A stretch of 64,000 bases of DNA from Oscillospiraceae bacterium (GTDB lineage Bacteria > Bacillota > Clostridia > Oscillospirales > CAG-272): NCBI GenBank assembly GCA_015064445.1, contig SVSE01000004.1, positions 62,001 through 126,000 on the forward strand, written 5' to 3'. The notes beneath the pieces were generated by a model. That model worked only from the letters and a program-made list of their open reading frames with translations. It made no database searches and was not told the DNA's origin. A program made the position numbers and the translations under genes. Numbering within the stretch: position 1 is the first letter of the stretch; the number at the start of each line of letters is the position of its first letter. Below are positions 10,181 to 62,492 of the stretch, in pieces.

Positions 10181-10197
10181 AAATGTGAAATGCGAAG

Positions 10198-10325
10198 TGA
10201 ATGCGGAATTCGGAATTCGGAATGCGAAGGGCGCTTCGCAATGAATTGCAACTTTGTTGCATGAATCGACACTCCGTGTCATGAATTGCAGTAAACTGCA
10301 TGAATCGCCTGACGGCATTTTGCAA
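10198..10325. repeat. GAATTC repeat plus hairpin array B1
   Basis: R-family units (10198-10223) are followed by five hairpins with different stems: GCGAAG/CTTCGC, GCAAC/GTTGC, GACAC/GTGTC, GCAG/CTGC and GCC/GGC. Each is separated from the next by the spacer ATGAATT or ATGAATC. The array ends 5 bp from the infB stop codon. Confidence 0.8.
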
Positions 10326-15241: not shown

Positions 15242-15350
15242 GCGTATACGAGCGAAAGCGAGTATCAAGGTTCCAAGCGTGAAAATGCTATTTGATTTTC
15301 ACAAGCTACGTAGTAGCCTGTTCAAAAGAACAGCGAGCTTGGGTTCTTCA
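15242..15350 (+). repeat. Structured element S1, copy 1
   Basis: A multi-branched fold: 5' hairpin ATAC...GTAT; closing helix CCAAGC (15273-15278) with GCTTGG (15337-15342); inside it three hairpins in a row, GTGAAAAT/ATTTTCAC, GCTAC/GTAGC and CTGTTC/GAACAG. Flanks AAGGTTC and GGTTCTT are conserved in all copies. Others at 36994-37105, 47959-48066 and 49816-49927 (minus). Confidence 0.85.
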
Positions 15351-34572: not shown

Positions 34573-37050
34573 ATGAACAAACCGATTTCAAAAAGGCTTA
34601 AAAAGCTAAAATTACAAAGCGAGCCAAAGGAGCTTCTTTTAGAGATTTTTACAATGCTTATCGCTTTTGCGATAACTCCGATAAAATTTCTGTTTGATAT
34701 TTATCCGTTTGGGCTTGCTCTTTGTGCCTCGACAAGAAGGCGTGCGCCCTTTGCCCTTGCAGGAAGCGCCTTGTCGTTTGTTTTGTTTGTGGACAAGCCT
34801 GTTCCGTATGTGATTGCCCTGCTCGCCCTTGTTGGAATGCGACTGGTAGGAAGCGTTTGGCTACACGATAACGGAGAAAGGGAGCTTTCGCTCGGAAAAT
34901 CCTCACGACCAAGCTTTGTGAGCTTGATTTTTATGGAAAGAGCCTCGGTAAGAGTCGCCCTGTGTGCGCTTTGTGCGCTCGGGCTTGGCGTTTGGAGAGT
35001 TATAGCAAGCGCGTATTCGTACTACGAAATCTTTGTTTTGATATTCTTTTGCGTGCTTGCAAGTGTGCTTTGCTATGCGCTATGCTCGCTCGACGAGGGA
35101 AGCTCCGACAGGCTTCTTGGAATTTGTGCGCTTCTTTTCATTTTTATCTATGCGATAAGGGGCAAGGAAATCTTTGGACTTGATATTTCAATGGTGCTGT
35201 CCTATGCGTCAATTCTCTATGCCTCAAAATACATATCGGGGGCAAAAAGCTGTGCCCTCGGTGCGCTACTCGGCATCTGTCACGGCCCTTTGTTCGCCCC
35301 TGTGTTTGCAATTTGCGCCATAACAAGCTCTTTTCTTTGGAGCTTTTCGTACTATCTTGCAATAATAAGCGCCCTTGTTATGAGCGTTGGCTATGGCGTT
35401 TTCGCATCGGGCTATCAGGCGCTCGTTTACCTTTTGCCAGAGCTACTTCTCGCCTCGCTTGCTATGTATCCGATAACGCGCTTTGAGATTTTGCCACGCG
35501 CCGACAGGCTTTTGGGAATCAAATCATCGTCGCCCAAGGTGGTAAGCACCACGGATGCCTCAAGAGAGGCAACGCTTGAAATGTCAAGGACCTTTTCCGA
35601 GATTTCGGAGCTTCTTAGTGAGCTATCACAAAAAGGAAAATCGCCCGACAGGGAGTTTTACAAGAGCGCAAGCCTCGAAATATGCGAGAGCCATTGCTTT
35701 TCGTGCCCAAAGCGCACAATTTGCTGGGAAAAGGAAATTCTAACAACAAAGGACAACATCGCAAGAATGGGCGAGGGAGTGTTTGTAAATGGCTCGCCAA
35801 GCGTCGATTCTCTTGATGAAAGATTTTTGCATCGTTGTCCAAACATTGAGCTTATATTCGATGAGCTTTCTGCCTTTAAGGAGTCGTGCGACAAGCGACT
35901 CTTTGCCACTGACAAGCTTGAAATTAGCGCACAGGATTATGCGCTTATGTCGAGGCTGATTGATGAGATTTTCTTGTCAATTGACAAGGATTCGCGCCCA
36001 AATCCACTTCTTTACGACAAGGTGGTGCGTGCCTGCGATAGAATCGGATTAAGATACGGCTTTTGCACCGTTACTGGCACGGAAAATGTTAAAATCACTC
36101 TCGGAGAGGTCGATAGCGAGGGCTCAAAATGCTCACTTAATGATTTGAAAATAGCGCTTGAGGACGCACTCGACATTTCTCTTGACGCGCCCGTGCTTTG
36201 CGAGGACGAGGACACGAGCAAAATCACAATAAAAAGGGCAAAATCGCTTGCAATCGTGAGCGAAAGCGCGTTTTTATCAGAGAACGAAAAGGAGCAAAAC
36301 GGCGACACAGTGTGCGAGATTTTCTCATCTGATGACAAATATTACTCGCTTTTGTGTGACGGAATGGGAACAGGCGCTGAGGCGCACGCAACCTCGCAAA
36401 TGTGTGCCGAATTTATGAGAAAGCTCCTTCCTGTTTGTAAGAGCAAGGAGCTCGCAATGTGTATGCTTAACAATTTTGTAAGGGCAAAGGCGCTGGAATC
36501 CTCGTCAAGCGTTGATTTGCTTGAAATCGACCTCTTAAACGGAAGCGCTTGCCTTGTAAAAAGTGGGGCTGCGCCCTCGTTTATCAAAAGAGGCACGAGT
36601 GTTTTTAGACTCCATTCTCGCACAGCGCCTATCGGCATTATGAGGGAGCTTGATGCCGAAAAGCTCGACTTCTCTCTGCGCGAGGGCGACATTATTGTTA
36701 TGATAAGCGACGGAATCGCAAGCGATGAAAGGGACAGCAAGTATTTAGTTGACTTTCTTTCAAGCGTTGAGGTGGTAGAAAATGATGAAATTATCGACAC
36801 TCTCCCCCTCGATAATATCAAAAAAGAGGTTCTTGCCCCTGCAAACTCGGCTGGCGCTATAAAATCGAGCGAGCCTCTTGAAAGAGCGCCCAAAAGAATC
36901 CCCTTCGCCTCTCTTGCTGATGCGATAATCAAGCTCGCCAAGCAAAGAGTCACCTCGTGCGATGATATGAGCGTGAGCGTGATTAAAATCACGAATGCGT
37001 ATACGAGCGAAAGCGAGTATCAAGGTTCCAAGCGTGAAAATGCTATTTGA
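34573..37050 (+). CDS. spoIIE: Stage II sporulation protein E
   Basis: An 825-residue membrane phosphatase that activates sigma-F in the forespore by dephosphorylating SpoIIAA and takes part in asymmetric division. Residues about 30-315 hold roughly ten membrane segments; 330-560 form the middle oligomerisation region with a cysteine cluster CESHCFSCPKRTICW; 570-790 are the PP2C phosphatase with LLCDGMGTGAEAHATS (metal Asp), VKSGAAPSFI and GDIIVMISDG. DDMSVSVIKI closes the domain. The final 19 residues (TNAYTSESEYQGSKRENAI) and the stop codon come from structured element S1 copy 2, so the native C-terminus has been replaced. Confidence 0.95.
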   Translation: MNKPISKRLKKLKLQSEPKELLLEIFTMLIAFAITPIKFLFDIYPFGLALCASTRRRAPFALAGSALSFVLFVDKPVPYVIALLALVGMRLVGSVWLHDNGERELSLGKSSRPSFVSLIFMERASVRVALCALCALGLGVWRVIASAYSYYEIFVLIFFCVLASVLCYALCSLDEGSSDRLLGICALLFIFIYAIRGKEIFGLDISMVLSYASILYASKYISGAKSCALGALLGICHGPLFAPVFAICAITSSFLWSFSYYLAIISALVMSVGYGVFASGYQALVYLLPELLLASLAMYPITRFEILPRADRLLGIKSSSPKVVSTTDASREATLEMSRTFSEISELLSELSQKGKSPDREFYKSASLEICESHCFSCPKRTICWEKEILTTKDNIARMGEGVFVNGSPSVDSLDERFLHRCPNIELIFDELSAFKESCDKRLFATDKLEISAQDYALMSRLIDEIFLSIDKDSRPNPLLYDKVVRACDRIGLRYGFCTVTGTENVKITLGEVDSEGSKCSLNDLKIALEDALDISLDAPVLCEDEDTSKITIKRAKSLAIVSESAFLSENEKEQNGDTVCEIFSSDDKYYSLLCDGMGTGAEAHATSQMCAEFMRKLLPVCKSKELAMCMLNNFVRAKALESSSSVDLLEIDLLNGSACLVKSGAAPSFIKRGTSVFRLHSRTAPIGIMRELDAEKLDFSLREGDIIVMISDGIASDERDSKYLVDFLSSVEVVENDEIIDTLPLDNIKKEVLAPANSAGAIKSSEPLERAPKRIPFASLADAIIKLAKQRVTSCDDMSVSVIKITNAYTSESEYQGSKRENAI

Positions 37051-37105
37051 TTTTCACAAGCTACATAGTAGCCTGTTCGAAAGAACAGTGGGCTTGGGTT
37101 CTTCA
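36994..37105 (+). repeat. Structured element S1, copy 2
   Basis: Nearly identical to copy 1, with GCTAC/GTAGC around ATA instead of GTA and CTGTTC/GAACAG around GAAA instead of AAAA; the closing helix keeps CCAAGC/GCTTGG. The first 57 bp are translated as the end of SpoIIE. Confidence 0.85.
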
Positions 37106-37300
37106 ATGAGGAATGAGGAACGCGGAGTGAGCTTCGCAATGAATTGCAACCTCACAGTTGCATGAATCGACACTCCGTGTCATGAATTGCGAGGGTCGCA
37201 TGAATTGCCTTCGGCATGACGGGTTGCGATTCGATTCATGGCGCAAGCCGATTCATGGAGCGCAGCGAGAATTCATGATGCAATAGCATCAATTCATCGC
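37106..37300. repeat. GAATTC-like units and hairpin array B3
   Basis: Hairpins GCAAC/GTTGC, GACAC/GTGTC, GCGA/TCGC and GCC/GGC with ATGAATY spacers, then, in the opposite sense, GGC/GCC, CGC/GCG and GATGC/GCATC with RATTCAT spacers. The midpoint is near 37225. The array occupies most of the 317-bp gap between spoIIE and pncB; no gene is seen. Confidence 0.8.
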
Positions 37301-44472: not shown

Positions 44473-44503
44473 CAAAACGCACTCAATCGAGTGCGTTTTT
44501 TGT
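44473..44503 (+). terminator. Terminator of the surface protein gene
   Basis: AAAACGCACTC / GAGTGCGTTTT with loop AATC and a following TTTTTTG run. Confidence 0.85.
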
Positions 44504-44522
44504 GTGTGATTTTCAAGAAGCA

Positions 44523-44843
44523 AGTTAGACAAGGCGCACCGCAGTAGACGGATTCATCAAATTAAGCGTCTTTGTGCTAAATTATCCTGCGAACCCCCAA
44601 AACTTACTTCGTGCATTTCGGGGAACCCCAGCGCTAGGCTCTGCTTTCGCCTTGGGCGACGGTGTACTCAGTGTACATCTAGGTCAAGGGGAAAGCTAGT
44701 AACGACGCATAATGACGCACAAAGCGATTTAAGCATCTTTGTGCTAAATTAGACAAGGCGTACCGGAAGATAGCGGGCGATGGCTATCTTTGTGATAGTC
44801 AAGGTCGCTATCATGGAACAACGCAGTATAATGACGCACAAAG
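44523..44843. repeat. Structured element S2: a 5' fragment and copies B and C in tandem
   Basis: A 5' fragment (44523-44552) is followed by copy B (44570-44724) with outer helix CTTTGTGC/GCACAAAG and inner helix GCTTTC+CCTTG / CAAGG+GAAAGC, then copy C (44737-44843) with the same outer helix and inner GATAGC/GCTATC plus CTATC/GATAG. Copy C ends 3 bp from the GH36 stop codon. This accounts for the whole 378-bp gap; no gene is seen. Confidence 0.78.
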
Positions 44844-47340: not shown

Positions 47341-47473
47341 TAGCATTCCGAATTCCGCACGGACCAGCGTCCGAGGCAAATCCCGCGTTCGCTTAGTAAG
47401 TATTGAATAACTCCCACGAAGCAATCTCATTCCTCATTCCGAATTCCTCATTCCGAATTCCTCATTCCGAATT
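47341..47473. repeat. GAATTC repeats flanking a 75-bp repeat (copy 1)
   Basis: R-family units at 47341-47358 and 47428-47473 border a 75-bp unit (47357-47433) that starts CACGGACCAGCGTCCGAGGC and ends CGAAGCAATCTCATTCC. The same unit with one or two changes is at 49728-49800. Confidence 0.8.
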
Positions 47474-47803
47474 TTAAAGTGCCCCTGTGGTTAGCTTGAT
47501 AATCTTCTTAATATCATCCGGCTGAATCTCTGCCTCGTGAGCTGTGCGATTTTTGGATTCGTAGCCACATTTTTCGCACTTATGCACTATTACATAGCCC
47601 TTTTTAGAGCTGATTTCAACTCTTATCGGGCGCATTATTCCACCACAATCGCTCGCTCTGTCGCCTGGCATTATGTCAACATGCTTCGAGCAAAGGCACT
47701 TCGGACAATGATTTCTCGACGAGTAGCCAAGAGGCTCTACCTCGTACCCACAATTTTCACATATAAATCCGTTATCGTTTTTTGTAAATCTTTTTGTTTC
47801 CAT
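47474..47803 (-). CDS. RNHCP-domain zinc protein
   Basis: A 109-residue protein with six or more metal-type cysteines: FICENCG, HCPKCLCSKH, DCGG and HKCEKCG. The RNHCP motif (SRNHCPKC) defines the family PF12647. Probably a zinc-binding RNA- or ribosome-associated protein; the role is unknown. Ribosome site CGGAG 6 bp upstream. Confidence 0.88.
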   Translation of the reverse strand: METKRFTKNDNGFICENCGYEVEPLGYSSRNHCPKCLCSKHVDIMPGDRASDCGGIMRPIRVEISSKKGYVIVHKCEKCGYESKNRTAHEAEIQPDDIKKIIKLTTGAL

Positions 47804-47896
47804 TTTAACTCCGATTAAATAGATGGCGAGGCATAAAAACCCGCCGTTTGAAAGTCTTTAGGCAAAGCTAGTAATGACGCATAAATGCCCACACAA

Positions 47897-48119
47897 TGAG
47901 GCTTTTAGGCAAAATTAGACAAGGCGTACCGGAAGATAGCGGGCGAAGGCTATCTTTGCTTATTACGATGTGCAACAAGTAACAAGGTTCTGACTTGCAA
48001 AAATTCTACTTGATTTTTGCAACACGCATAGCGTGCTATTTGCAAAAATAGAATGTCAGGTTCTTATAGTCAAGGTCGCTATCGTGGAACAGCGCAGTAT
48101 AATGAAGCATAAAAGCCTC
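47897..48119. repeat. Structured element S2, copy D, interrupted by S1
   Basis: Outer helix GAGGCTTTTA (47897-47906) with TAAAAGCCTC (48110-48119), the latter overlapping the mnmE stop codon. Inside, the sequence matches copy C up to GGCTATCTTTG and resumes at TAGTCAAGGTC; the intervening ~108 bp is an S1 element. A 3' fragment of S2 lies at about 47859-47888. Confidence 0.78.
47959..48066 (+). repeat. Structured element S1, copy 4 (diverged)
   Basis: Same plan as copies 1-3 with different helices: closing CTGAC/GTCAG, then TTGCAAAAAT/ATTTTTGCAA, CACGC/GCGTG and CTATTT/AAATAG. Retained words are AAGGTTC, CTA.TTG in the first loop, and GGTTCTT at the end. Confidence 0.82.
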
Positions 48120-49815: not shown

Positions 49816-49927
49816 TGAAGAACCCAAGCTCGCTGTTCTTTCGAACAGGCTACTACGTAGTTTGTGAAAATCAAATAGCATTTTCACGCTTGGAACCTTG
49901 ATACTCGCTTTCGCTCGTATACGCATT
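49816..49927 (-). repeat. Structured element S1, copy 3
   Basis: Reverse orientation; nearly identical to copy 1, with GAAA in the third hairpin loop. It directly follows the terminator at 49928-49956 on the minus strand. Confidence 0.85.
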
Positions 49928-62202: not shown

Positions 62203-62290
62203 GCAATGAATTGCAACCCCACAACAAGTGCGAAATGCGAAGTGCGAAACGCGAAATTAATGCGGAATTCGGAATGCGAAATGCGGAATA
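62203..62290. repeat. Fragment of hairpin array B and GAATTC units
   Basis: GCAATGAATTGCAAC at 62204-62218 is the start of a B-type array; R-family units follow at 62226-62290. Confidence 0.65.
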
Positions 62291-62293
62291 AGT

Positions 62294-62428
62294 AAGCATT
62301 CTCCTTGAGGAGAAGGGGGACCACATTAGTGGTGGCTGAGGTGTAGCCACTTGTGGCGTATCCAAATCTACACCTCATCAGTCAACATTCGTTGACAGCT
62401 TCCCCTCCAATCAAAGGGGAAGCCTATC
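62294..62428. repeat. Palindromic clostridial repeat
   Basis: Consecutive hairpins TTCTCC/GGAGAA, CCAC/GTGG, GAGGTGTA/TACACCTC enclosing GCCAC/GTGGC, GTCAAC/GTTGAC, and GCTTCCCCT/AGGGGAAGC. I recall elements with similar words as common intergenic repeats in Ruminococcaceae-type genomes. A last R-family unit follows to 62466. Confidence 0.65.
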
Positions 62429-62465
62429 AAATTCATTCCGAATTCCGAACTCCGCATTCCGCATT

Positions 62466-62492
62466 AAAAAAACCGACACCCTGTGTCGGTTT
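62466..62492 (-). terminator. Terminator of the tadA-acetyltransferase unit
   Basis: AAAAACCGACAC / GTGTCGGTTTTTT with loop CCT. Confidence 0.85.

Follow-up and report, generated by a model that had tools for sequence, protein, structure and literature searches.

The window, by which we mean the whole stretch of 64,000 nucleotides analysed here from contig SVSE01000004.1 of an Oscillospiraceae bacterium (a window coordinate is the contig coordinate minus 62000), holds four copies of a multibranched element named S1. A first-pass annotation made from the letters alone had reported them, and they are real: AAGGTTC-N50..80-GGTTCTT, used as a search pattern, has four matches in the window and no more, against 0.01 expected by chance, and a covariance model of the kind that had been proposed, R1, built from 16 sequences, places S1 at 15242-15350 (+), 36997-37105 (+), 47959-48067 (+) and 49816-49924 (-). 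In copy 1 (15242..15350, +), found by R1 and read off the sequence and the fold, hairpin X (15246-15265) comes before the word AAGGTTC (15267-15273), a closing helix (15273-15278/15337-15342) that encloses three hairpins (15279-15302, 15305-15317 and 15318-15333), and the word GGTTCTT (15342-15348), all on the + strand. Copy 2 (36997..37105, +) forms the 3' end of spoIIE, copy 3 (47959..48067, +) is inserted in a repeat, and copy 4 (49816..49924, -) directly follows an inverted repeat that has a T run. The annotation had correctly separated three near-identical copies from a divergent one and had drawn the helices correctly, but it had swapped the labels of copies 3 and 4; the divergent copy (CTGAC/GTCAG, TTGCAAAAAT, CACGC, CTATTT) is the one at 47959-48067 (+), while the copy at 49816-49924 (-) is near-identical to copies 1 and 2.

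In the whole genome R1 finds six S1 copies, five on contig 1 and one on contig 5, with those outside the window at 134826-134934 of contig 1 and 13909-14017 of contig 5. Copy 1 and three copies 94, 98 and 99% identical to it fall within 57.7 kb of the 1.77 Mb genome, a clustering with a simulated random-placement P of 1.3e-4 in this genome, the only one so treated. The window also contains dispersed repeats of 7-nt units of the GGAATTC/GGAATGC kind (11-68, 17948, 20628, 47402-47486, 49793 and 62226-62471), which abut S1 copies 1 and 4, and by eye two hairpin-word arrays (37105-37300 and 10181-10290) in which small variable hairpins are separated by a constant ATGAATTG or its complement. Relatives carry other hairpin-word arrays downstream of genes (L044, L061-L069 and L222), with the words GTGAAGTT, GTGATATT or TGAAATC.

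Architecture and Covariation of the Family

All four window copies form the same multibranch, in agreement with the single common fold first drawn for them, with z values against shuffled sequences of -2.5 to -3.6 as RNA and -1.5 to -4.1 as DNA (element strand, four copies). This three-hairpin multibranch elaborates on a simpler core with two hairpins. The core, about 45-50 nt long, runs from hairpin X, which contains a GA/GA mismatch, through AAGGTTC and hairpin Y to GGTTCTTA, and it is common to a wider family of which S1 is the long form. Hairpin X is built of a stem, the GA/GA internal mismatch, a short stem and a tip, and is followed by C and AAGGTTC; in the Y region AAG pairs with CTT, GTT lies opposite GTT and C pairs with G, the remainder of Y being free. 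In S1 long forms the tip of Y holds three hairpins, the first having the loop word CTATTTG in most of the 16 members. Elsewhere in the family the tip is often tiny, many R1 matches being only 48-53 nt long with both ends kept, and in such short forms a small hairpin, for example CTGCGAAGCAG, replaces the three-hairpin tip. The X stems in Patescibacteria are TTAC/GTAA, TTGT/ACAA, ATTC/GAAT or AATAT/ATATT, next to an unchanged AAGGTTC..GGTTCTTA. The near-identical trio in the window (copies 1, 2 and 4) represents a subfamily with less certain boundaries that ends in CTTC, not CTTA. Two loci of genome G009 (L058 and L070) carry S1 variants in which an unrelated G+C-rich stretch replaces the inner hairpins, which suggests that the S1 tip is a swappable module.

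The compensatory change originally described from four copies was borne out in 16 family members, where 15 pairs are altered on both sides (shuffles have a mean of 10.1, and 3 of 500 reach 15), 60 cells contain a both-sided pair change against 20.3 in shuffles, and the covariation score is 0.335 against 0.156, with 0 of 500 shuffles as high; the number of pair types, 23 versus 25.6, shows no excess, and in this 16-member test the outermost helix was entered two columns off. The words AAGGTTC and GGTTCTT had been described as constant and unpaired, and the constancy of AAG and CTT stands, but AAG can pair with CTT in 25 of 25 short forms. The AAG/CTT and C/G pairs never vary across these 25, so AAG/CTT gives no covariation evidence; among the inner pairs both partners change. 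With more copies, selection on a folded strand, either RNA or single-stranded DNA, still holds, and the evidence leans towards single-stranded DNA.

Occurrence of the Family

No named family had been recognised in S1, and in the Rfam search no family reached its gathering score in the window; in E-value mode, two short regions gave sub-threshold matches only. The open-access literature, searched by titles and abstract openings with subscription papers outside the scope, yielded no description of the S1 family. A plain DNA search found matches in 11 of 145 relatives, the own genome counted, and R1 matches 25 of 194 genomes, that is, 22 of the 29 of the genus and three others. A short-pattern search of genome contigs returned at least 119 stretches, those listed being mostly from uncultured Clostridia of gut and rumen; also among the matches listed are Patescibacteria AH-259, unclassified bacteria and two Desantisbacteria contigs whose hairpin X is atypical, and some without hairpin X that look like chance. 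The short-form model R2 matched 7 of 295 genomes from the order and 0 of 348 from the phylum, both being lower bounds given the stricter filters and a model that does not see the long form (the own genome scores nothing), with a phylum-wide sample that contained no positive genome. For the phylum to which a Patescibacteria carrier belongs, the R2 count is 10 of 239 genomes, and three Patescibacteria genomes of about 1.0, 0.8 and 0.7 Mb have 22, 23 and 18 R2 matches, respectively. Neither S1 copy 1 nor the short core matched phages, the short core (the only query used there) matched no plasmid, and the strict pattern gave 0 matches in viral contigs; 10 viral-contig matches of a looser pattern were discarded, being without hairpin X by eye.

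Filled and Empty Insertion Sites

The flanks of 255 element contexts were joined, and the uninserted site was sought among the fetched loci. Spanning matches were obtained for 60 of the 255, most of them neighbours in tandem arrays, and we rely on six non-tandem filled and empty target sites, which compare repeats or other species, not resequenced strains. In the window, S1 copy 3 at 47959 lies between a left flank (repeat D12, 47904..47958, +) and a right flank (repeat D13, 48061..48113, +, whose first 7 bases overlap the S1 end), and both repeats recur in an empty copy at 44738..44842 (+), where the spanning match covers 44761-44827 at 91% identity. The other five sites are a tRNA-Arg locus filled in L087 and empty in L248, L025 and L027 versus L096, L057 versus L190, L090 versus L131, and L130 versus L126. 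Clear junctions read TTA|TATCC, GAGTTA|TATTGC and GCAGTTA|TATTCG, and a CCTA|TG junction has a 3-nt difference on its right side; the boundaries of window copy 3 and of L130 (compared with L126) are uncertain because their flanks mismatch at the exact junction, which leaves them ambiguous by a few bases. The larger repeat that hosts copy 3 spans 44480-44842 and 47840-48113 of the window, and similar flanks hold S1 in L006 and L052. Short forms also occur within other hairpin-word arrays, at TTA|TAT, in L057 and L090.

Among 122 unique non-tandem flanks, the left flank is TTA in 85, ATA in 17, CTA in 11 and something else in 9, against a TTA background of 2.0%, and the base to the right of the element is T in 107, C in 13 and A in 2. 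The right end is CTTA in 121 of the 122, under a search pattern that permitted only [CT]T[AC] there; the table leaves out X stems other than TTA[CT], TTGT, ATTC and TTTC and thus omits window copies 1, 2 and 4. Had CTA been duplicated, it would fit the pattern, yet none of the 11 CTA targets has a CCTA right end, so the TTA at the right end is part of the element. Judged from these comparisons of sequence, S1 looks mobile and behaves as an insertion 3' of (T)TA, mostly before T, with no clear target duplication.

Copies of the S1 family occupy intergenic stretches, other repeats and tRNA-Arg copies, and in at least one case a copy lies in frame within a gene. S1 copy 2 provides the end of the spoIIE frame (PF07228), roughly its final 18 codons together with the stop; the spoIIE orthologues in G009 and G007 extend about 4 and 14 codons and then stop, with no S1, and in G009 a short copy lies downstream of the orthologue. 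In a Patescibacteria paralogue pair (L320 versus L310), one protein has 15 extra in-frame residues read from a copy. Some copies end on a TTA that reads as a stop codon on the opposite strand, as in L247, where we take the adjoining gene end to be guaA-like. Several of the tRNA-Arg(CCT) loci (L014, L075, L087, L100, L101, L119, L125, L142, L153, L168 and L189) carry partial tRNA copies, some of them interrupted by S1. We rejected S1 as a tRNA intron, given that an intact tRNA-Arg(CCT) adjoins the interrupted copies in L087, L101 and L189, so these look like pseudogenes; splicing of the full-length interrupted copies in L087 is possible.

Taking fold and insertion sites together, we lean, with some reserve, towards reading S1 as the long form of a family of very small mobile DNA elements, non-autonomous and acting in the form of a folded single strand.

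The Search for a Mobilising Gene

The search for a mover covered PF01797 (Y1), and neither the PF01797 hits in genomes, nor the 32 Y1 loci, nor the loci that bear copies revealed a mobilising gene linked to S1. PF01797 has 0 hits in the own genome, which is 97% complete, and none in Patescibacteria G196, which has 23 element matches; it is present in 15 of 29 other carriers and in 12 of the 29 genus genomes, where 9 of 22 with an R1 match and 3 of 7 without one have it, and there is no association. A complete core occurs in 0 of the 32 Y1 loci, most of them taken with up to 1.5 kb on each side, and two of these loci contain an isolated GGTTCTTA. A Y1 transposase as the linked mover is unsupported in the own genome, the 29 carriers, the 29 genus genomes and the 32 loci. 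Across 1.2 Mb of loci, 19 left-end words have no right end close by, and none of them belongs to a gene-carrying version; the genes near Patescibacteria copies look ordinary, being presumably rsmH-, mraZ- and ftsZ-like.

These results bear directly on the explanation that a Y1 enzyme, either RAYT or IS200-type, which was lost or is missing from the assemblies, moves S1 in trans as a REP/BIME-like element. Y1 systems do use hairpins and a short 5' target (PMC6006769), and divergent Y1 genes of 162-175 aa, which we read as RAYT-like, occur in the genus, so a hit-and-run mover is possible. Besides the lack of Y1 in the own genome and G196, what weighs against such a mover is the sequence in front of the element: none of the 25 short-form rows has GT[AG]G or CGTC within its first 12 letters, before hairpin X, and in all 25 [G/A]TAAC, which is no REP tag, precedes AAGGTTC. 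We consider this explanation unlikely.

Single-Stranded DNA or RNA

Folded single-stranded DNA fits better than RNA, on balance, by the G-T counts in stems, the cGNAg triloop tips favoured on one strand and the orientation to genes. The element stems total 1,260 Watson-Crick, 22 G-T, 14 A-C and 66 other pairs; the Y stems contribute 480, 7, 4 and 23, and the X stems 570, 7, 8 and 15 (outer) and 210, 8, 2 and 28 (inner), with the X counts biased to Watson-Crick because the 5' arm was picked for maximal pairing. In the same loci, 43 tRNA acceptor stems have 266 Watson-Crick, 34 G-T, 0 A-C and 1 other pair, and the G-T to A-C ratio differs between element and tRNA stems (Fisher p 2.7e-5). The tips are triloops in 72 of 96 copies for X and 70 of 96 for Y, with cGNAg in 37 and 49, respectively. 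A stricter recount, demanding three Watson-Crick tip pairs where X often has two, gave 35 cGNAg, 17 cANAg, 5 cTNTg, 3 complement-type cTNCg, 3 GNRA and 1 UNCG among 162 distinct Y strings, 29 being without a three-pair stem, so that the majority of Y tips are not cGNAg; for X it gave 9 cGNAg and 9 GNRA of 239 strings. Hairpins of DNA with GNA loops and G-C stems have exceptional stability (PMC4686876). Neighbouring genes are co-oriented with the element in 27 of 63 cases upstream and 26 of 63 downstream, as at random, in a count that omits 23 edge cases and 17 copies inside long frames. This random orientation to genes argues against a cis-acting RNA, and it is no proof that the strand is single in vivo. 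No lagging-strand preference was seen, the GC skew of the element strand being positive in 50 of 103.

An alternative is a structured RNA, a UTR element or small RNA repeatedly duplicated under selection on the transcript, which we regard as improbable. A fold more stable than shuffles and covarying helices would suit it, as would L249 and L252, in two genomes, where the element separates a Shine-Dalgarno-like word from the start codon of a gene that is presumably spoVT-like, and L251 (G096, 1403-1600), where two tandem copies lie directly 3' of a T-box leader terminator (RF00230) and just before a gene start; L249 and L252 are possibly a co-opted case. However, RNA would predict neither the missing tRNA-like G-T excess over A-C, nor the scarcity of GNRA and UNCG tips (4 of 162 Y strings), nor the copies inside other repeats and tRNA copies, and no Rfam family is present in the window.

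Equally improbable to us is a local hairpin spread with no dedicated enzyme, by replication slippage, template switching and homologous recombination, given that, while the clustered near-identical copies and common head-to-tail arrays (of period 104, seven copies of period 45 in L099, and others too) could come from slippage, in genomes where other hairpin-word arrays are present, TTA|T junctions in unrelated targets and a fixed AAGGTTC..GGTTCTTA core in both Clostridia and Patescibacteria are hard to obtain in this way.

A Proposed Mechanism

For the preferred reading of S1 as a mobile element acting as folded single-stranded DNA, we propose that hairpin X would mark the 5' end and hairpin Y followed by CTTA the 3' end, and that a trans-acting single-stranded DNA endonuclease, with HUH-like chemistry, might recognise both hairpins on one strand. 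This enzyme would cut after the TTA of the left flank and after the element's own right-end CTTA, and the excised strand would be joined to a new TTA target. By analogy with the ends of IS200/IS605, the invariant AAG...CTT may pair a guide with the cleavage site, and this would account for its constancy while the other stems drift. It is conceivable, though doubtful, that S1 represents an undescribed class of single-stranded DNA transposition, with two hairpins, a TTA|T target, an AAG:CTT guide, a distribution over Clostridia and Patescibacteria, and a non-Y1 enzyme that is possibly a housekeeping one.

The S1 family looks recently active because near-identical copies and identical arrays persist in genomes in which no Y1 was found. 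S1 is a clear natural case of selection on what seems to be folded single-stranded DNA: its ends and its target are defined, and its stems covary freely. With the same core in distant phyla, the spread of palindromic repeats without a known mover becomes directly testable.

Comparison with Known Systems

Several known systems share features with S1. Rickettsia palindromic elements are mobile palindromes that can lie in frame in genes (PMC10969869); likened here by description, they measure about 150 bp, and S1 is mostly intergenic. TIGR arrays, found in phages and parasitic bacteria, are tandem, some with variable palindromes (PMC12045711). Tandem arrays are common to both, but the linking words of S1 are near-invariant, in contrast to the variable spacers of TIGR arrays, and TIGR-Tas was rejected, with the Nop-domain gene (PF01798) in 0 of 12 carrier genomes. 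S1 was also rejected as a MITE, as its ends are different hairpins with no terminal inverted repeats, besides the CTA targets lacking a CCTA right end. Helitron and IS91 elements have a 3' hairpin, no target duplication and head-to-tail arrays, Helitrons inserting between A and T, and their consensus end is CTRR, whereas S1 ends in CTTA. Integron attC sites, set beside S1 by eye, carry RYYYAAC/GTTRRRY boxes and go with an IntI.

Like S1, the REP/BIME/REPIN repeats are small, palindromic, mostly extragenic, multi-copy and clustered, have some mis-paired stems and resemble IS200/IS605 ends (PMC3733652 and PMC6006769). REPs are defined by GTAG or CGTC tags (PMC3733652), and for five TnpA_REP subclasses REPs lie within 1 kb of the great majority of the genes (PMC6006769). 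Neither the own genome, nor the carriers, nor the 32 Y1 loci had a RAYT gene flanked by the repeats, and S1 differs from REP/RAYT further in its head-to-tail instead of inverted pairs, its two dissimilar hairpins and its TTA|T target.

IS200/IS605 elements make no target duplication, and insertion 3' of a short target without duplication is also what we found for S1, where TTA, at 85 of 122, is not absolute. IS200/IS605 ends combine hairpin recognition with a guide word that interacts with a cleavage word, and they have a hairpin near each end, as has S1, and a cleavage set by a short flanking word, as S1 would have (PMC6006769). The loci examined contained no IS200/IS605 parent with tnpA and the same ends, of which S1 could be a gene-less derivative, and S1 is much smaller, with a hairpin X that begins at the first base and leaves no room for a left guide. 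In summary, S1 is best read as falling outside REPs and IS200/IS605 by the features that define membership in each, while working in the manner of REPs or of IS200/IS605 ends.
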